A stretch of DNA of 58,539 bases from Lentisphaeria bacterium (GTDB taxonomy: Bacteria; Verrucomicrobiota; Lentisphaeria; JABSQK01), in the NCBI GenBank assembly GCA_013215875.1, contig JABSQK010000029.1:1-58539 (forward strand), read 5' to 3'. Each line of letters opens with the position of its first letter. Position 1 is the stretch's first letter. Shown here one piece after another: positions 7,021-36,680 of the stretch. The notes under the pieces were generated by a model. The model ran no database searches and was not told the DNA's origin. It saw nothing but the letters and a program-made list of their open reading frames with translations. A program made the position numbers and the translations under genes.

Positions 7021-7809
7021 CTAAAGAAGCGTAGCCATTGCTGAGCTTAGAATTTTGGTTCCTTGAGCTTGTACTGCAATCGCAATATTGGATCTGACGC
7101 CTGCCGAACTCATTTCAGTTAAGGCGCGCGCAAAATCCGTATCCACTTGTTTCGAACCGGCTTCGCGCAGTGCGACTTCAGCATCCATATTTGCACCATA
7201 GCGATGCTTCATCATGTTTTGTTCCGCTCCTAAAGTTGAACGGTGCTGGCTCACTTTCTCACCAGCAGCATCTAATGATTCGATGGCCTGGTCAATGTTT
7301 GACATATCTCTGAGATCCAAATCGTCCAAACCCAGCTCGCTTAAACTTAGATCTGGAGTGGATAATGATACAGACTCGCCATCTGGACTGACTGCTACTT
7401 TCACATCGCCACCTTGCAGAATCTCTTTGCCATTGTAGTTGGCCGTTCTGTTGTTCAAAGAAATATGCTTAATTATTTCCTGAGCTTCGGTATTGAGTGA
7501 TTCCCTGTCTGCATCTGTCATTGTTCCATCGCCGGAGCGCACAGCAAGCTCTTTCAAGCGTGTTATACTGTCATTGGTATCCGCCAAACAGGCATCTACC
7601 GTATGAGATCTGGACATTGCAGACTGGATATTTTGATTTGCCATATTGCTGCGTTTTGCTTGATTGAGCAGACGCTCGCCTATTTGCAATAGGGCGGGAC
7701 TATGTTCGCTGGAGCTGCGTTGCCCGGAAGCAAGCTCTCCAAATTTTGTTGTGAGCGCATTATGATTACTGCTAATGGCGCTCGATAAATCGAGACTAAT
7801 ACTATTCAT
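7021..7809 (-). CDS. Flagellin (short form)
   Basis: A filament protein of 262 residues with only the D0/D1 core. The N-terminal half holds the LASGQR motif, heptad-rich helices and RLKELAVRSGDGTMTDADR. The C-terminal helix holds DTDFARALTEMSSAGVRSNIA and ends AMATLL. The variable outer domains of longer flagellins are absent. Residue 73 is a Cys (VDACLADTND), unusual because bacterial flagellins rarely contain cysteine. No other flagellar gene lies in the window, so it is a distant member of a flagellar regulon. The ATG follows AGGTG. A sigma-28 promoter and a 5'-UTR hairpin precede it. Confidence 0.93.
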   Translation of the reverse strand: MNSISLDLSSAISSNHNALTTKFGELASGQRSSSEHSPALLQIGERLLNQAKRSNMANQNIQSAMSRSHTVDACLADTNDSITRLKELAVRSGDGTMTDADRESLNTEAQEIIKHISLNNRTANYNGKEILQGGDVKVAVSPDGESVSLSTPDLSLSELGLDDLDLRDMSNIDQAIESLDAAGEKVSQHRSTLGAEQNMMKHRYGANMDAEVALREAGSKQVDTDFARALTEMSSAGVRSNIAIAVQAQGTKILSSAMATLL

Positions 7810-7987: not shown

Positions 7988-8968
7988 TTAAAATTCGATT
8001 TCGATGACGACAGGCAGATGATCTGAATAGAGATCCGGCCCGATTTTACGTGAAATCACATTGATAGACGGACTGAGCAAACAATGATCGATAGGAATGC
8101 GAATGAGAGAATTTCCTGATGGCCAGCTTGCCTGATTTCCATAGCCCTGCCGACTATCATACAGATTGGCATCCGTTAATAAATCCTTGAAATAGGGCGA
8201 CCAGGGAACTGTATTAAGATCACCAATAATGACCGTATTTGAACCTGCAACAACTTTGTTGGCCAGAAATTTGAGTTGTTTATTGCGGTTAATGGAGTAA
8301 TCCAGGCGTCGTGGCGGCAAAGGATGCGTTCCCCATATACAAAGCTTTTTATTAAACAGCAAGGCACGAATGCTTGGCACTCCCCGGTTACCTCTTTTAA
8401 CAATAGCCGCCTCATCGAATGGAATGCGGCTGAGCATCGCAATACCAAAGTTATCATCACGCAAGGACTCTTTATGATGTGGATAATCAGTTCGCAACTC
8501 AGCAAGCGCATTCCACCATTTATAGTTTACTTCCGCTAATACAATGATATCCGGATTTTCGCTTTTTACGTAGTCCATAAAACGGTTGTAGTTTCTATTT
8601 CCTGAGTAAACATTGAAAAACAGCAGCTTCAGCTTTTTGTTTTCGACGAGAGCCACTTTTGTCCTCGGCACATAACCTGGGACAATTTGTGTTAGTAAAA
8701 AGAGAATTGGCAGTGTAATGAATGCAGCCTTCTTCCAGCTCTTAGCTAACAGTGCAACTATTAGCGCCACTGCATAGCAAACTAGGTACTGCATGTAAAA
8801 ACTATTTAATAAATCGAATATATAAAAAACCCGACCCAGAAATGAGCCGCATAATATGAGTGTTAGAAGGACTGTCGAGGCATCAACCAGCCCGATGAAG
8901 CTGAAAAGATTTCGTCGCTTCTTTGCATTTTTGCGTTCGTCGACTGTAGATACGTTTGCGATTCTCAA
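7988..8968 (-). CDS. Membrane-anchored endonuclease/exonuclease/phosphatase (EEP) protein
   Basis: About 326 residues with three N-terminal membrane helices (roughly residues 23-115) and an extracytoplasmic EEP domain. The catalytic motifs are all present: NVYSGN, LAEVN (metal-binding Glu), GDLNT and the final SDHLPV. The layout resembles YafD-type membrane EEP proteins, which act on phosphoesters of unknown identity. The best start is a TTG that overlaps the end of the HMG-CoA synthase gene by 86 nt. No ATG or GTG exists before the first membrane helix, so translation coupled to the upstream gene is likely. The exact start is uncertain. Confidence 0.85.
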   Translation of the reverse strand: MRIANVSTVDERKNAKKRRNLFSFIGLVDASTVLLTLILCGSFLGRVFYIFDLLNSFYMQYLVCYAVALIVALLAKSWKKAAFITLPILFLLTQIVPGYVPRTKVALVENKKLKLLFFNVYSGNRNYNRFMDYVKSENPDIIVLAEVNYKWWNALAELRTDYPHHKESLRDDNFGIAMLSRIPFDEAAIVKRGNRGVPSIRALLFNKKLCIWGTHPLPPRRLDYSINRNKQLKFLANKVVAGSNTVIIGDLNTVPWSPYFKDLLTDANLYDSRQGYGNQASWPSGNSLIRIPIDHCLLSPSINVISRKIGPDLYSDHLPVVIEIEF

Positions 8969-10064
8969 TACCTTCTAAAAAATGTTTGCCCGAAAATAAA
9001 TTGCTGTCTATTCGACCCGGAAAAAATGAACAGTGCCATTCATGCCACTCTGTGTATTGCTCATGATCAACCTCAATGCGACCCTCTAAATGAGCAGTAT
9101 TTTTCTCCTGATTTGTTCTTAACTGATTTATTCGTCCATTAAAAAATACTGCAGTACTACCTGAGCCATAACTATAAAACCCCAGCTTTTCCAAAGGAAT
9201 TTCCGCATGATCCATTAGCGATATGAATCCTAAATACAAGGAGGCAGTATAGCTATTACCAATCATCCGTGAATAAATCTTACTGGAATCTATTGTGTCT
9301 TTAAAGTCAAGATCTTTCCCGTTCTTTCGCAAAACATTAAGTACTTTTCGGCTAATACCATTATAAGGCAGGTGCAGCAGGATTGCGCTTAAATCATCCA
9401 AAGAATTGCTCTGTGAATACCGCTCGATACTTTGCTCAAATAATTTCAGATAAGTTTTGATCGATAACTTACCATCAACGCAGGCCGTTTTGCAATACGA
9501 GGGTCGCCAGAAATCCATTTGGTCATCCAGCAGGGTGACATAGTCTGGACTGATGTGCAAAAGCCTTGGATCTTCTTTTATGATCATGGCGACTGCAGCG
9601 GCACCCTGTGTCGCTTCTGCCGGGCTGCCAGCCGGGTAGAGGGCATGGTCTGAACAAATGACCAATACCTCACGTTCGGGATTCATATGCACGAATGCTT
9701 GAGCGGTTAAGAGTGCATAAGTCCCGCCACAGCATGCCTGCTTGATATCAAATGCCATGCAATCCTCAGGTAAACCAAGCAGCGTTTTTATATGAATTGC
9801 TCCCGACTTCGCTTGGTCGACAAAGGATTCACTGGCAAAAATAATCGGCGAAATTTTAGATTTATCGCAGTTTTTAAATAATGCTTCTGCAGCATTTGCA
9901 GCCATCGTAATAATGTCTTCATTGGGTGGCATCACAGCCATTTTTTCTTGCTCCAGTCCGATAGCAAACTTTTGCGGATCTACACCATAGCTCTGTGCCA
10001 GATTTTTCAAATCCATATAATAGCGCGGTGTATAAAACGCTATGTCATCAATTCCAGTTTTCAT
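8883..10064 (-). CDS. Hydroxymethylglutaryl-CoA synthase family protein
   Basis: A thiolase-fold enzyme that would condense acetyl-CoA with a 3-oxoacyl thioester. The 393-residue protein keeps the full catalytic triad at the positions known from MvaS: Glu79 in FASESFVDQ, Cys111 in DIKQACCGGT and His231 in LLHLPYNG. The C-terminal block GIENRKRIY matches the family end. The ATG has an ideal AAGGAGGG site. It may serve the mevalonate pathway, but no other mevalonate gene is nearby. Its partners are a di-iron protein and an EEP phosphatase, so a beta-branching or specialised lipid role is equally possible. Confidence 0.9.
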   Translation of the reverse strand: MKTGIDDIAFYTPRYYMDLKNLAQSYGVDPQKFAIGLEQEKMAVMPPNEDIITMAANAAEALFKNCDKSKISPIIFASESFVDQAKSGAIHIKTLLGLPEDCMAFDIKQACCGGTYALLTAQAFVHMNPEREVLVICSDHALYPAGSPAEATQGAAAVAMIIKEDPRLLHISPDYVTLLDDQMDFWRPSYCKTACVDGKLSIKTYLKLFEQSIERYSQSNSLDDLSAILLHLPYNGISRKVLNVLRKNGKDLDFKDTIDSSKIYSRMIGNSYTASLYLGFISLMDHAEIPLEKLGFYSYGSGSTAVFFNGRINQLRTNQEKNTAHLEGRIEVDHEQYTEWHEWHCSFFPGRIDSNLFSGKHFLEGIENRKRIYSRRTQKCKEATKSFQLHRAG

Positions 10065-10082
10065 ATTACCCTCCTTATTTTT

Positions 10083-10871
10083 CTATACTTCAGCTCGAAT
10101 AGTCACTTGATTCCATCGTGTCGTTTTCTTGAACAATTTTGCATGTTCTTTGAGGTCACTTTGCAGTGCCTGCCATTCGCGCATGCATAATTTATGAAAG
10201 CCAAAAATAGATAATCCAGATGATTTTAATACAGAACGGTGATCCATCCAAACTACCGCAATTGCTGCATTATATACACGATAGTGAAAAAAATGTGCCA
10301 ATGATTGCCGCATGGGGTCTTTTGCTGATTTCGCCAAGGCCAGTGCCTGCCCTTGAAATTGCACATGGTAGTCTTCGTCATGCATGATCTGTCGGCAGAT
10401 AGTTTTCAAGGCAGGCGAATGACTGGCATCATAAAGGGAGTGATAATAAACTTTGGCGATTAACTCAGCACAAATTAACACACGTATTTCGATTTCAAGA
10501 TCCAGGCATTTTCGCAAAAAACGAAAGCAGCTATCTGTCCATTGTTTGCGAAGGACTGGAATCTTCTGCTGATTCATAAATGTTTTCAGATTATCCGCAT
10601 GGCGATGTTCCTCTTTGATAAATAAGTCGAGGCATTTCATATAGGCTTGATTGCCGTTTCGTGCTACAAATTCACGGGCTTTATTGATAAAGGTACGGCC
10701 CTCTGAACTCTCACCAAGTTGAAATATTGCTACGGATTGCCCGATGCAGAGCTTTGTTTGCAGGGAGATAATATCATCATCAGCAAAGGTGATATCCAGC
10801 AGACAGTCTTTGTTCGTTTCAAAATAATCAAACCAGTCATTCCAGTTTTCAGGATAATCTCTTTTATACAT
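10083..10871 (-). CDS. Ferritin-like di-iron protein
   Basis: The 262-residue, mostly helical protein has a full carboxylate-bridged di-iron ligand set: a Glu in GESSEG (54 or 57), Glu88/His91 in EEHRH, Glu136 in CAEL and Glu166/His169 in HDEDYH. This E / ExxH / E / ExxH order fits ferritin-like oxidases or N-oxygenases. The fold family is supported, the substrate is unknown. It is the first gene of an operon with the HMG-CoA synthase (19-nt gap) and EEP gene. A strong AGGAG site precedes the ATG, and an operator palindrome lies 30 nt upstream of the start. Confidence 0.75.
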   Translation of the reverse strand: MYKRDYPENWNDWFDYFETNKDCLLDITFADDDIISLQTKLCIGQSVAIFQLGESSEGRTFINKAREFVARNGNQAYMKCLDLFIKEEHRHADNLKTFMNQQKIPVLRKQWTDSCFRFLRKCLDLEIEIRVLICAELIAKVYYHSLYDASHSPALKTICRQIMHDEDYHVQFQGQALALAKSAKDPMRQSLAHFFHYRVYNAAIAVVWMDHRSVLKSSGLSIFGFHKLCMREWQALQSDLKEHAKLFKKTTRWNQVTIRAEV

Positions 10872-10900
10872 TGCTAACTCCTTTCTATATGTGTCTACTC

Positions 10901-10917
10901 ACTTTGCAATGCAAAGT
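10901..10917. promoter_or_regulatory. Operator of the winged-helix regulator (copy 1)
   Basis: A perfect inverted repeat ACTTTGC-AAT-GCAAAGT. It extends outwards as GTCTA/TAGAC arms to 10893-10925, giving a 33-bp imperfect palindrome. It begins 30 nt before the start codon of the ferritin-like gene. The near-identical site before the regulator's own operon makes autoregulation plus control of this operon the simplest reading. Confidence 0.75.
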
Positions 10918-10934
10918 AGATAGACAAAAAAATA

Positions 10935-11288
10935 TTAAATTGTTTTTGCTTTCCTTATGTCACCATTTTCCATGGCAGTTGATGCTTGTCTCAATACTTC
11001 CTCAAGGGTCGTGAGGTAGTTTAGGAAATTTTTGCGCCCATTTGCAGTGAGTTTTATAGTGGTCAGCGGTTTTACGCCAGCAAATGATTTGTTAACTTTT
11101 ATAGCCTTTGCTTCTTCGAGCATGTGTAAATGCCGGTTTAGATTGCCATCGGTAATTTCGCAGTTCTTTTTTATTTCTGAAAAGCTGATGCCATCGCTGT
11201 GTTGGGCAAGCAGAGACATGATTGCCAGGCGTTTCGGCTCATGAAATATTTTTGATAAGTCATTAAAAACATTTTCCGATTTACTCAT
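10935..11288 (-). CDS. Winged-helix transcriptional regulator (HTH_34/ArsR-MarR-like)
   Basis: A 117-residue DNA-binding protein. The sequence FHEPKRLAIMSLLAQ, then FSEIKKNCEITDGNLNRHL (recognition helix) and the wing VKPLTTIKLTANGR, match the small HTH_34 winged-helix family often encoded beside a membrane protein. Its ATG shares one base with the stop of the upstream membrane-protein gene (TAATG), so the two are translationally coupled. It most likely binds the two ACTTTGC-type palindromes in this region as a dimer. No cysteine cluster or other sensor motif is visible, so the signal is unknown. Confidence 0.88.
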   Translation of the reverse strand: MSKSENVFNDLSKIFHEPKRLAIMSLLAQHSDGISFSEIKKNCEITDGNLNRHLHMLEEAKAIKVNKSFAGVKPLTTIKLTANGRKNFLNYLTTLEEVLRQASTAMENGDIRKAKTI

Positions 11289-11872
11289 TATAGTTTCCTT
11301 GTTTTGTCTAAATGTAAAATGATGGCAGTCGCCGTTTCACCTATAAGAATAATGCTGCCGGGAACAATGCTGTGATAAAAACTAATTCCAGGGATGATGA
11401 GCAAGCTTACTCCAGCAATCAGGTAGCTCACATTAACATAGAAAAGCTGCCTGGGCAAAAAGTGCCTGGAGCTAAAGCCCAGCATTCCGTATAGGGCAAT
11501 CCAGCTGCCAAATAGCATGTCGTAACTGCCATTGCGGAGCAGGGCGATGCTTATGCCGGCTGCAAGCAAGAGCGATGGCAGACATGTCGATAAGGGGATT
11601 AATCGATTCCAGTCGCGCTCGGTATCTTTAATAAACCAGCGTAATACCGCGACGGCATTGAATAATGCACCGAGTGATATGGCGAGCATCCAATAAGAAA
11701 AATGCAGGATAAATGAGTGTTCGCAGCTCATGAGATAGAGGCAGATCAGAAACGTACTGATGCCGCCGGCAAAACGGGCCGGCGCACTGACACCCTCTAT
11801 GCGCTGGTTTAAGACGATCTGCGAACGAATGTTTTGTATCTGATTAATCGTATCTTTTATATTGTGTTCCAT
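11288..11872 (-). CDS. Membrane protein partnered with the winged-helix regulator
   Basis: The 194-residue protein has a short amphipathic N-terminus and about five to six membrane helices. Family unknown. HTH_34 regulators are commonly co-encoded with such integral membrane proteins, which may relay a signal or modulate the regulator. Its stop overlaps the regulator start by one base, and its promoter contains the regulator's predicted operator. Confidence 0.75.
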   Translation of the reverse strand: MEHNIKDTINQIQNIRSQIVLNQRIEGVSAPARFAGGISTFLICLYLMSCEHSFILHFSYWMLAISLGALFNAVAVLRWFIKDTERDWNRLIPLSTCLPSLLLAAGISIALLRNGSYDMLFGSWIALYGMLGFSSRHFLPRQLFYVNVSYLIAGVSLLIIPGISFYHSIVPGSIILIGETATAIILHLDKTRKL

Positions 11873-11886
11873 AGTATTATGAATAA

Positions 11887-11927
11887 CTCATTAAATTTAC
11901 TTTGCAATACAAAGTATGTAAATATTT
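11887..11927 (-). promoter_or_regulatory. Promoter with embedded operator (copy 2)
   Basis: On the minus strand, TTTACA is followed after exactly 17 nt by TAAATT, a plausible sigma-70 promoter. The spacer holds the palindrome TACTTTG-n5-CAAAGTA (11898-11916), which differs from copy 1 at one of 17 core bases. An operator placed between -35 and -10 is the classic layout for a repressor. It lies 27 nt upstream of the membrane-protein start. Confidence 0.7.
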
Positions 11928-12048: not shown

Positions 12049-13275
12049 ATGAAAACACTTTATCTAAATCCCTACAGCGGCATAGCAGGCGATATGACTG
12101 TCGCTGCATTGCTTGACCTAGGTGCAGATTGCGACGCGTTTTGGGCTGAATTGAAAAGTATTCCACTTCCTGCAGATGAATGGCACTGCCATGTGGAAAC
12201 TGTTATGCGCCATGGCATAAAAGCGCAAAAATTTAATGTGCACTTTCATGAACATGGTGAGTCTCATACTCATGAGCACTCAGAGGACGATGACCATTCA
12301 GATGATCATGCGCATCCTGGTCGTCATTTGCCAGAAATCATTTCCTTAATTGAAGAATCTAAAATGTCCGATACTGCGAAAACAAATGCCAAGCAATGTT
12401 TTCAGCACTTAGCAGAAGCAGAGGCGAGTGTACATAATTCGACACCAGACGAAATCCATTTTCATGAAGTCGGCGCGGTCGATGCGATTGTGGATATTTG
12501 CGGTGCAGCGATAGGGATGGCAATTTTAGAGGTCGACCGGGTGGTATCTGCGGCACCATTGCTGGGCTCTGGAACAGTGAAATGCGCTCATGGAATTATG
12601 CCTGTACCTGTTCCGGCTGTGTGCAAATTGCTGGAGGGTGTGCCAAGTAAAGCGGGTGAATTTAAGACAGAAATGACAACCCCTACAGGTGCGGCAATTT
12701 TGAAAACCTACGTTGATGAATTTGAGGCTGCAGTAAGCGGTAAGATTCTCAGCAGTGGATTTGGTGCGGGAACGAAAGATTTTGAAAATCATGCCAATGT
12801 TTTGTCAGTGGTTTTATATGAATCAGATGAGCAAGATGTGGCTGACAGTGTGCTTGTTATTGAAACAAATATCGATGATATGTCGGGTGAATTACTGGCT
12901 CACGCCTGTGGCAAGCTTCTGGAATTGGGCGCCTTGGATTATACCATCTTACCATGTACCATGAAAAAAGGGCGCCCGGGTCAGCTCTTGTCAGTCATTG
13001 TTAGACACGAAGACTTTACTGTAATCTCCGATTACCTATTACGATTTACCACTACCTTTGGTTTGCGCTATCAGACCTGGCAGCGCAAAATACTTAAGCG
13101 TGAAATTATTCAAGTGGAAACTGAATATGGGCCCGTGGACTGCAAGGTGGCATATGATGAAGAGGGTGAAGAAATTAAGCGATCAGCAGAGTATGAAAGT
13201 TGCCGGAAGCTGGCAGATGAAAATGGTATCGATATTTCCATTTTGTATACGGCCGTGCAAAATAGAAAATCCTAA
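12049..13275 (+). CDS. larC: Nickel-pincer cofactor synthase LarC
   Basis: LarC inserts nickel into the pyridinium-bis-thiocarboxylate cofactor used by lactate racemase and related epimerases. The product has 408 residues. Hallmarks are the N-terminal YLNPYSGIAGDM, a His-rich metal loop (about residues 62-85, many H-E-H and D-D-H), EIHFHEVGAVDAIVDI, the TPTGAAIL block and the C-terminal IETNIDDMSGE plus TMKKGRPG. It is one uninterrupted frame, whereas in Lactiplantibacillus it is made by a ribosomal frameshift. No larA, larB or larE is in the window. I start at the ATG before KTLYL; longer upstream reading lacks family similarity. Its stop overlaps the convergent carboxypeptidase stop by 4 nt. 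Confidence 0.95.
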   Translation: MKTLYLNPYSGIAGDMTVAALLDLGADCDAFWAELKSIPLPADEWHCHVETVMRHGIKAQKFNVHFHEHGESHTHEHSEDDDHSDDHAHPGRHLPEIISLIEESKMSDTAKTNAKQCFQHLAEAEASVHNSTPDEIHFHEVGAVDAIVDICGAAIGMAILEVDRVVSAAPLLGSGTVKCAHGIMPVPVPAVCKLLEGVPSKAGEFKTEMTTPTGAAILKTYVDEFEAAVSGKILSSGFGAGTKDFENHANVLSVVLYESDEQDVADSVLVIETNIDDMSGELLAHACGKLLELGALDYTILPCTMKKGRPGQLLSVIVRHEDFTVISDYLLRFTTTFGLRYQTWQRKILKREIIQVETEYGPVDCKVAYDEEGEEIKRSAEYESCRKLADENGIDISILYTAVQNRKS

Positions 13276-34652: not shown

Positions 34653-36680
34653 ATGGAAGAAAAGGAAAAAGGCGTGTATTCTGCCAACTCAATAATCGAA
34701 AGCATGGGGGTTTATTTCCCCGAGCGTACAGTAACGACGAAAAATATTCTGGAATCCTGCAAAAATCTGGTGATGTACCCGCTGGAGCGTATTACAGGCA
34801 TTGAGAGTCGTCGCATGGCTGGACAGACGGAATTTTCCATCGACCTAGCAAAAAATTCGATTGCCGAATGTCTGCGTCGCTCCAAATACCGTCCCGAAGA
34901 TATCGACTTACTTATTTGCTGCAACATTTCCCGTTACGACGAAAAAGGCGCAGTCAGTTTCGAACCCAGTACAGCAGTGCAACTCAAACATCACTTTTCT
35001 CTCAGCAATGCGATTTGTTTCGATATTTCAAATGCCTGCGCCGGCATGTTCACTGGTGTGAATATTGCCGATAGCTTTCTCAAGGCGGGTGTTGCCAATC
35101 GGGCCCTGGTTGTCAGTGGCGAATATATCACCCATCTAACCAATACGGTGCAAAAAGAAATTTCAGATCAAAAAGATGACAACCGCATGGCTTGTTTGAC
35201 ACTTGGCGATTCCGGCGCGGCAGTGATTCTTGAACGCTCAACAAACAATGACTACGGCTTTCACGATATCGATATGTTAACTTTAGGTGATTACAGCGAC
35301 CTGTGCATAGCCGAACCTACCAGCGAAGATCATGGCGGTTTCGTCATGATTACCAATGCCAGCAAACTGCACCATGTGGCAATCACTGAATCAATAAAAA
35401 TGACAGTCGATAAAATTCGCAAGTACAAATTACAGGGTTCATTAAACCATTTTCTTATGCATCAGACTGCCAGCTCAGCAATCAAACAAACCTACCGCGG
35501 TATAAATCAATTACTCGGCGGCCAGTTATGGAATTCCAATAACGTCATCGATAACCTGCGTTACCGTGGCAATACCAGCACAACATCTCACTTTGTTGCT
35601 CTATGGGATAAGATTCACGACGATACCATTCAAAACTATGAGTCGGTAATGTTTACCGTGCAGGCATCCGGTATTACCCTGGGGGTTATGCCTTATACAT
35701 TGGACGATCTGCCCGAACGCATTCGCAATGATAAAACGCCGCAAAAACTACTCGAAGCAGCAAAGCTCTCAGATAAACCAGAGCAGAAAACAGAACGAAT
35801 TACCATTCGTGCGAGTGGCTTGGATGTGCATCGCAGCGGTAAAGCAGATTCGCTTGTGCTCGCCACCAATGCAGTAAAAAATGCCTTGGGCGAAACAGAT
35901 GTCGATCTTTCCGAATACGACTTAATGATCAATGCCGGAGTATACCGTAACAATTATCTCGCAGAACCCGCAGTGGCGACAATGGTTGCCGGAAATATTA
36001 AGCTCAATTCAGATGTGGAAGACTGGCAAAAATCAAAAACATTTGCCTTCGATATAATCAATGGAGCCTGTGGTTTTCTTTATACCTGCTTCACTGCAGA
36101 GTCAATGCTCAAGTCCGGTAAGTTCAATAAGGCAATCTGTGTCACTTCCGAAATCGAAAACAATAAACAATCAGTTTCCGATAAGATGGTTGGAATAAAA
36201 GAAAGCGGCGCGGCACTGCTCCTTGAAAAGACTAAAGAAAACCAGGGATTTATCGATTACCATTTCAGTAGCTTCACAGATCACCTCAACAAATTCCGCT
36301 CCAAGGTAATCACAGTCGATAAAAATTCCTATCTCGATTTCAAGCGGGATGATAAATTTGAAGAAAGCTTAATCAACTGTATCGATACATCATGCGAAGA
36401 ATTTTTAGCGAAGCACAATTTGAGCTTCGATGATATCGCCCTGGTTTTTCCTCCGCAAATGTGTACTGAGTGGATTCGCAATCTCGGCAAAAAGTTAAAT
36501 CTTAACTCAGATAAACTGATCATTGTAGAAGAAGATAATACCGAAAACTATTACACTACATCCATTCCATTCTGCTTACGTCATGTCGAGTCAAAAGGCC
36601 TCGCAAAAGAAGGCGAAATCGCCTTAATGATCGAAGCCGGTTCCGGAATAAACGTCGCTCTCGCACTCTACCAGTTTTAG
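34653..36680 (+). CDS. Tandem 3-oxoacyl-ACP synthase III (KAS III) fusion
   Basis: 675 residues made of two KAS III/FabH folds. The first (about 10-350) keeps the active-site triad: Cys129 in SNACAGMF, His270 in LMHQTASS and Asn307 in GNTSTTS. The second (about 385-675) keeps Cys473 in NGACGFLY and an NTEN...TTSIP stretch. The His position reads FPPQMC, so the catalytic His is lost and the half is degenerate. Condensation of an acyl-CoA with malonyl-ACP is the family reaction. The dead second half may act as a chain or partner dock. This resembles a covalently fused dimer. Neighbours point to lipid or envelope chemistry. Confidence 0.8.
   Translation: MEEKEKGVYSANSIIESMGVYFPERTVTTKNILESCKNLVMYPLERITGIESRRMAGQTEFSIDLAKNSIAECLRRSKYRPEDIDLLICCNISRYDEKGAVSFEPSTAVQLKHHFSLSNAICFDISNACAGMFTGVNIADSFLKAGVANRALVVSGEYITHLTNTVQKEISDQKDDNRMACLTLGDSGAAVILERSTNNDYGFHDIDMLTLGDYSDLCIAEPTSEDHGGFVMITNASKLHHVAITESIKMTVDKIRKYKLQGSLNHFLMHQTASSAIKQTYRGINQLLGGQLWNSNNVIDNLRYRGNTSTTSHFVALWDKIHDDTIQNYESVMFTVQASGITLGVMPYTLDDLPERIRNDKTPQKLLEAAKLSDKPEQKTERITIRASGLDVHRSGKADSLVLATNAVKNALGETDVDLSEYDLMINAGVYRNNYLAEPAVATMVAGNIKLNSDVEDWQKSKTFAFDIINGACGFLYTCFTAESMLKSGKFNKAICVTSEIENNKQSVSDKMVGIKESGAALLLEKTKENQGFIDYHFSSFTDHLNKFRSKVITVDKNSYLDFKRDDKFEESLINCIDTSCEEFLAKHNLSFDDIALVFPPQMCTEWIRNLGKKLNLNSDKLIIVEEDNTENYYTTSIPFCLRHVESKGLAKEGEIALMIEAGSGINVALALYQF

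Follow-up and report, generated by a model that had tools for sequence, protein, structure and literature searches.

To our knowledge, the mevalonate and MEP pathways of isoprenoid biosynthesis have no enzymes in common before IPP and DMAPP. A bacterial HMG-CoA synthase gene in a regulator-linked operon occurs in the alternative isovaleryl-CoA pathway of myxobacteria, where mvaS is combined with aibA, aibB, aibC and aibR. In the locus described here and its relatives, one unnamed di-iron protein and one regulator-operator pair adjoin enzymes of either isoprenoid pathway. The literature on ferritin-like proteins with IspH or HMG-CoA synthase, on IspH fusions and on isoprenoid regulators yielded no description of this set, in agreement with an earlier note on this DNA that knew of no pathway with such genes, and a MEP-pathway survey (PMC10663253) gave no passage on such an operon for the terms searched. 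The window (the whole 58,539-bp stretch of DNA analyzed) probably carries a repressor-controlled isoprenoid operon. Its di-iron protein, termed FER, would be an oxidase or oxygenase of a kind not yet described and would serve the isoprenoid pathway.

The arrangement of the operon genes, read leftward on the minus strand, is MEM, REG, FER, HMGS and EEP. The earlier note had named the last three, and all are present as window open reading frames on that strand: FER (10083-10871), a ferritin-like di-iron carboxylate protein of 262 amino acids; HMGS (8883-10064), a 3-hydroxy-3-methylglutaryl-CoA synthase of 393 amino acids; and EEP (7988-8968), an endonuclease/exonuclease/phosphatase-family protein of 326 amino acids counted from TTG 8968. 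The operon exceeds these three genes, as REG (10935-11288), a winged-helix regulator of 117 amino acids (HTH_34, ArsR/MarR-like), and MEM (11288-11872), a membrane protein of 194 amino acids with seven predicted helices and no curated family, are also members. REG and MEM overlap by 1 base, an 18-bp gap separates FER from HMGS, and with TTG 8968 as the start of EEP, which is uncertain, EEP and HMGS would share 86 bp. A flagellin gene (7021-7809, minus strand) adjoins the operon.

The operator that the earlier note assigned to this shared operon is real and is accompanied by a second copy. In the gap between REG and FER the core ACTTTGCAATGCAAAGT at 10901-10917 is an inverted repeat with perfectly matched 8-bp arms on either side of a single base, and lies inside a 33-bp imperfect palindrome (10893-10925, no strand assigned). 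The other copy, ACTTTGCAATACAAAGT at 11899-11915 (no strand assigned), has one mismatch and is placed 27 bp ahead of the MEM start, so that the window holds two sites compared with 0.32 expected. This MEM-side copy falls in the spacer of a weak σ70-like site (11922-11894) whose score is not above chance. The general form is a 17-bp palindrome, ACTTTG-N5-CAAAGT, which in relatives from two phyla recurs both before MEM and in the gap that follows REG. In Acidobacteriota and Planctomycetota it also precedes FER genes that stand alone. The 1.65 Mb of fetched loci, a set enriched for these operons, contain 35 exact and 65 one-mismatch sites compared with 0 and 2.4 in mononucleotide shuffles, and a control of 1.6 Mb elsewhere in one genome (G214) contains three one-mismatch sites, one of them a poorer match. 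The other two of these G214 sites lie in tandem (L222:9746-9784) just before two membrane-protein genes without a known family, which are possibly further members of the regulon.

REG scores 79.4 bits against PF13601 (HTH_34; cut-off 27) and is 50% identical to the copy in G005, a genome of the same order. As an ArsR/SmtB metalloregulator it reaches 29.6 bits against the NF033788 cut-off of 55, and its sequence has a single cysteine. Among curated families MEM gives only a sub-threshold match to DUF981, and its AlphaFold model (pLDDT 87.3) has no match in the PDB with E ≤ 0.001; homologues stand beside REG in relatives. REG, most likely a repressor, would bind ACTTTG-N5-CAAAGT at two places, ahead of MEM-REG and ahead of FER-HMGS-EEP. 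MEM would be its membrane partner or sensor, and this regulation would raise one isoprenoid-precursor enzyme jointly with FER. In the same order MEM-REG is located ahead of HMGS directly in two genomes (G001 and G002) and with a DUF4153 gene between in G005. The MEM-REG-linked HMGS is a second copy beside another in G002 and G005 and the only copy found in G001. In the G005 locus (L025, contig C37) HMGS is split over two frames, as is the intervening DUF4153 membrane protein interrupted, indicating that this copy is decayed or mis-assembled.

HMGS passes the model of prokaryotic HMG-CoA synthase (TIGR01835) narrowly, with 361.6 bits against a cut-off of 360.35, and its closest solved structures are bacterial HMG-CoA synthases. 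Alignment with nine homologues and with solved HMG-CoA synthases places the catalytic residues at Glu-79, Cys-111 and His-231, the last presumably equivalent to His-233 in Staphylococcus aureus numbering. The retention of Glu, Cys and His claimed in the earlier note is thus borne out, and the enzyme looks active. No mevalonate gene follows it in the window, again as claimed, and the search of the genome covered HMG-CoA reductase, mevalonate-diphosphate decarboxylase and IPP isomerase. HMG-CoA reductase and a type 2 IPP isomerase cut by the contig end are encoded on contig C399 and the decarboxylase on contig C357. The TIGR01835 search identifies the window HMGS as the only mevalonate-type match in the genome, a draft of 876 contigs (92.7% complete, 5% contaminated) in which a second copy is possible; two further matches are weak and of the KAS III type, one of them in the window. 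No IspH is found in this genome or in five other genomes of the same order. Because the reductase, decarboxylase and partial isomerase lie on other contigs with no IspH and no other mevalonate-type HMGS, the protein is most likely the ordinary mevalonate-pathway enzyme of this bacterium, and would supply HMG-CoA to a reductase and later enzymes encoded elsewhere in the genome.

The identity of HMGS to copies in the same order is 34-41%, the HMGS tree has mostly open forks on whether the MEM-REG-linked copies form a single clade, and no relatives emerged when contigs were scanned with only the HMGS protein. A role as the β-branching HMG-ACP synthase of a polyketide cluster is extremely improbable and was dropped. 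Homologues of this type do occur in the same order, as in G005 (C410; L026:7044-13957), where a cassette assigned by eye comprises HMGS, two enoyl-CoA hydratase-like (ECH) genes, ACP, KS and acyltransferases; the window HMGS is only 26% identical to that copy, scores as the mevalonate type, and has none of the β-branching partners (ACP, decarboxylating KS, ECH) nor any other PKS gene near it among the window ORFs. Elsewhere in the window (34653-36680, plus strand) a 675-amino acid protein is composed of two tandem KAS III-like (ACP_syn_III) halves, with a DegT aminotransferase gene and a gene having GNAT and acyltransferase domains as neighbors. In three genomes of the order a conserved-looking protein of ~700 amino acids is encoded immediately ahead of HMG-CoA reductase (L075:1539-3644, L077:10940-13039 and L078:7737-9827).

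EEP is, as the earlier note had it, a phosphatase-type gene with membrane character: it matches Exo_endo_phos (PF03372) with 90.6 bits, the EEP-family motifs N, E, GDLN and SDH are intact, and its hydrophobic N terminus resembles, by eye, about three membrane helices. It is not found beside FER or HMGS at any other locus examined, which makes it most likely a lineage-specific passenger. The earlier note had combined the three genes into condensation, oxidation and phosphoester hydrolysis, a dedicated route to an unusual lipid or signal apart from the mevalonate pathway. The genes are indeed contiguous, with tight or overlapping boundaries and intact active-site motifs in all three. The note had itself set this proposal against a mevalonate pathway elsewhere in the genome without another hmgS, and the latter is what is seen for the reductase, decarboxylase and isomerase searched. 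Since HMGS most likely works in the mevalonate pathway and the operons of relatives lack EEP, a three-enzyme pathway is unsupported; with IspH in place of HMGS in homologous operons (described below), we regard it as very improbable.

The di-iron character of FER proposed in the earlier note is supported by a full set of ligands, Glu-54, Glu-88xxHis-91, Glu-136 and Glu-166xxHis-169, which is invariant in 57 relatives. The confident structural model (pLDDT 92.8) has the predicted helical bundle with E, ExxH, E and ExxH expected of a ferritin-like di-iron carboxylate protein, and its nearest solved folds are the R2-like ligand-binding oxidase (R2lox) and aldehyde-deformylating oxygenase (ADO), both remote with a best E of 2e-3. 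No Pfam or NCBIfam family is matched above cut-off, the PDB gives no trustworthy match by sequence, and the first FER alignment offered no stretch conserved enough for scanning. Against the ADO families PF11266/TIGR04059 the window FER has no match and one of the 57 homologues matches with E of about 0.002-0.005, and against rubrerythrin (PF02915) FER reaches 16.5 bits, below the cut-off of 22.8. MiaE is absent from the top 50 fold matches, so FER was dropped as a MiaE-like tRNA hydroxylase, and COQ7 matches are only weak, so it was dropped as a quinone hydroxylase. BioE, described as ADO-like (PMC12915131), was set aside because it differs in ligand spacing (34/48/30 in FER compared with 27/72/30 for the ligands listed in that paper) and in genomic context.

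In Verrucomicrobiota and Planctomycetota the order MEM-REG-IspH-FER is found on one strand with the same two operators, and IspH takes the place of HMGS. Downstream of MEM-REG in the planctomycete G1158, IspH and FER are joined in a single open frame of 591 amino acids with LYTB at residues 44-324 and FER after it. On the mevalonate side there are three cases, the window and two Anaerolineae loci, and FER is incomplete in two of the three: in-frame stops interrupt the FER of L199 (HMGR-FER-HMGS-thiolase), and the FER of L210 (HMGR-AHSA1-FER) is lost at the contig end. The L199 FER (12442-12987) has its stops after about residue 135 and is either a pseudogene or an assembly error. One more FER, likewise truncated by its contig end, came from 250 additional relatives of the Anaerolineae genome. 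The earlier note proposed looking for the three genes side by side in other genomes. EEP was found beside FER or HMGS at no other locus, and FER adjoins HMGS only in the window and in L199 with its disrupted FER; FER with isoprenoid-precursor enzymes recurs.

Of the 22 FER loci fetched from public genomes of Verrucomicrobiota, 18 have IspH beside FER and 16 of these also have REG; of the 15 from Planctomycetota, 11 have REG and 4 of these also have IspH. The set is biased, since the alignment used for fetching consisted mostly of operons of the MEM-REG-IspH-FER type. Samples selected otherwise have MEM-REG-IspH-FER at five FER loci among the 12 FER-bearing genomes of the window's own phylum (388 searched), and MEM-REG before FER in three of the seven FER-bearing Planctomycetota genomes (392 searched). 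Several Verrucomicrobiaceae have another IspH besides that of the operon, and the planctomycete G394 has the operon copy alone. The tabulated operon copies keep all listed Fe-S cysteines and active-site residues (canonical IspH rows L192-L194 are left out of this table), as does the G1158 fusion except for Ser replacing Thr at one site. LytB/IspH-like proteins lacking the Fe-S cysteines and most active-site residues are encoded in G271 and G207 (L207:8120-8977 and L206:8006-8950), the one in L207 behind MEM-REG; these are possibly pseudo-enzymes serving as sensors.

In the FER tree the window FER, those of the Verrucomicrobiota operons and those of the Planctomycetota operons occupy separate parts, and the REG label, placed on the IspH-operon and Planctomycetota rows, changes at least six times on starred branches. 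The placement of REG-linked FERs in separate parts means that the link is not an accident of a single clade and was repeatedly retained or established anew. FER is often alone in cyanobacteria, Actinomycetota and Proteobacteria, with no isoprenoid neighbor found at the loci examined. Two associations are conserved in gene order: FER pairs with an enzyme for isoprenoid precursors (IspH, HMGS or HMG-CoA reductase), and MEM-REG pairs with IspH, HMGS or FER. The unusual element is therefore FER and its regulon and not a new use of HMG-CoA synthase. A looser association, with MEM-REG as a general stress regulator that captured unrelated genes and FER without an isoprenoid tie, would fit the MEM-REG-FER operons without an isoprenoid gene in Gemmata-like planctomycetes and the additional G214 operator before two membrane-protein genes. 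The IspH-FER fusion, the HMGR-FER pairing in Anaerolineae with no MEM-REG found nearby, and the occupation of one slot by HMGS and IspH, which are analogous and not homologous, argue against it and make it quite unlikely.

The main rival is protection of labile enzymes. FER would then be no biosynthetic enzyme but a rubrerythrin- or ferritin-like protein for redox defense or iron handling. It would shield or repair isoprenoid enzymes, chiefly IspH with its sensitivity to O2, as part of an oxidative-stress or iron regulon. Such a function accounts well for the association with IspH, a 4Fe-4S enzyme fused to FER in one genome, and agrees with the weak rubrerythrin matches in 24 of the 57 FER members. 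It accounts poorly for HMGS and HMG-CoA reductase, both without an Fe-S cluster and also found with FER; FER has no rubredoxin domain, and its predicted model is closer to substrate oxidases than to ferritins. On balance we consider it unlikely, if less so than a loose association.

The preferred reading of FER as an oxidase or oxygenase draws on its ties to enzymes of the mevalonate pathway (HMGS and HMG-CoA reductase) and of the MEP pathway (IspH, once in the same polypeptide), which suggest that it most likely acts on what both routes share. The substrate would most likely be the C5 diphosphates IPP and DMAPP or a prenyl product derived from these, on which FER would act as an O2-using di-iron enzyme. 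The sequences themselves show the gene layout and linkage, the fusion frame, the conserved operator, the catalytic motifs and the pathway content; repression by REG, the function of MEM and the chemistry of FER are inferred. More tentatively, and at a level of confidence somewhat short of even, FER may found a new di-iron oxidase/oxygenase family whose substrate is a shared C5 diphosphate or prenyl product. Its membrane-coupled repressor (MEM-REG, ACTTTG-N5-CAAAGT) would then govern isoprenoid supply throughout Verrucomicrobiota and Planctomycetota and perhaps Acidobacteriota, where operator-like sites precede FER. The occurrence of FER and the regulator-operator pair beside enzymes of either pathway makes FER a concrete, testable candidate for a new redox step, or a protective function, in isoprenoid metabolism. 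Through the operator the control of isoprenoid genes becomes accessible in phyla for which no such regulator was found described, and the IspH-FER fusion opens a direct biochemical test.

HMGS resembles MvaS, the bacterial mevalonate HMG-CoA synthase (TIGR01835), in its full-length match above cut-off, its catalytic Glu, Cys and His and the partly found pathway in the genome; it differs in being diverged, barely above the cut-off, and situated behind MEM-REG and FER. The myxobacterial alternative isovaleryl-CoA pathway likewise has a bacterial hmgS in a regulator-linked operon, whereas the window operon has no glutaconyl-CoA decarboxylase-like or reductase genes. IspH (LytB), the last enzyme of the MEP pathway, stands next to REG and FER where HMGS would be in the Verrucomicrobiota and Planctomycetota operons, and keeps its tabulated active-site residues, but is unrelated to HMGS, belongs to the other isoprenoid pathway and is absent from the window genome. 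FER has the ligand type of rubrerythrin, ferritin and encapsulin ferritin-like cargo and weak profile matches to them, but stays below their cut-offs, has no rubredoxin domain, and no encapsulin gene was noticed alongside. With cyanobacterial ADO, BioE and the R2-like ligand-binding oxidase the FER model shares the ferritin-like di-metal fold and the E/ExxH/E/ExxH ligands (TM by target mostly 0.63-0.70 for cyanobacterial ADO), and FER is distinguished from this group by the lack of a significant sequence match, a ligand spacing unlike that of BioE and a different genomic context.
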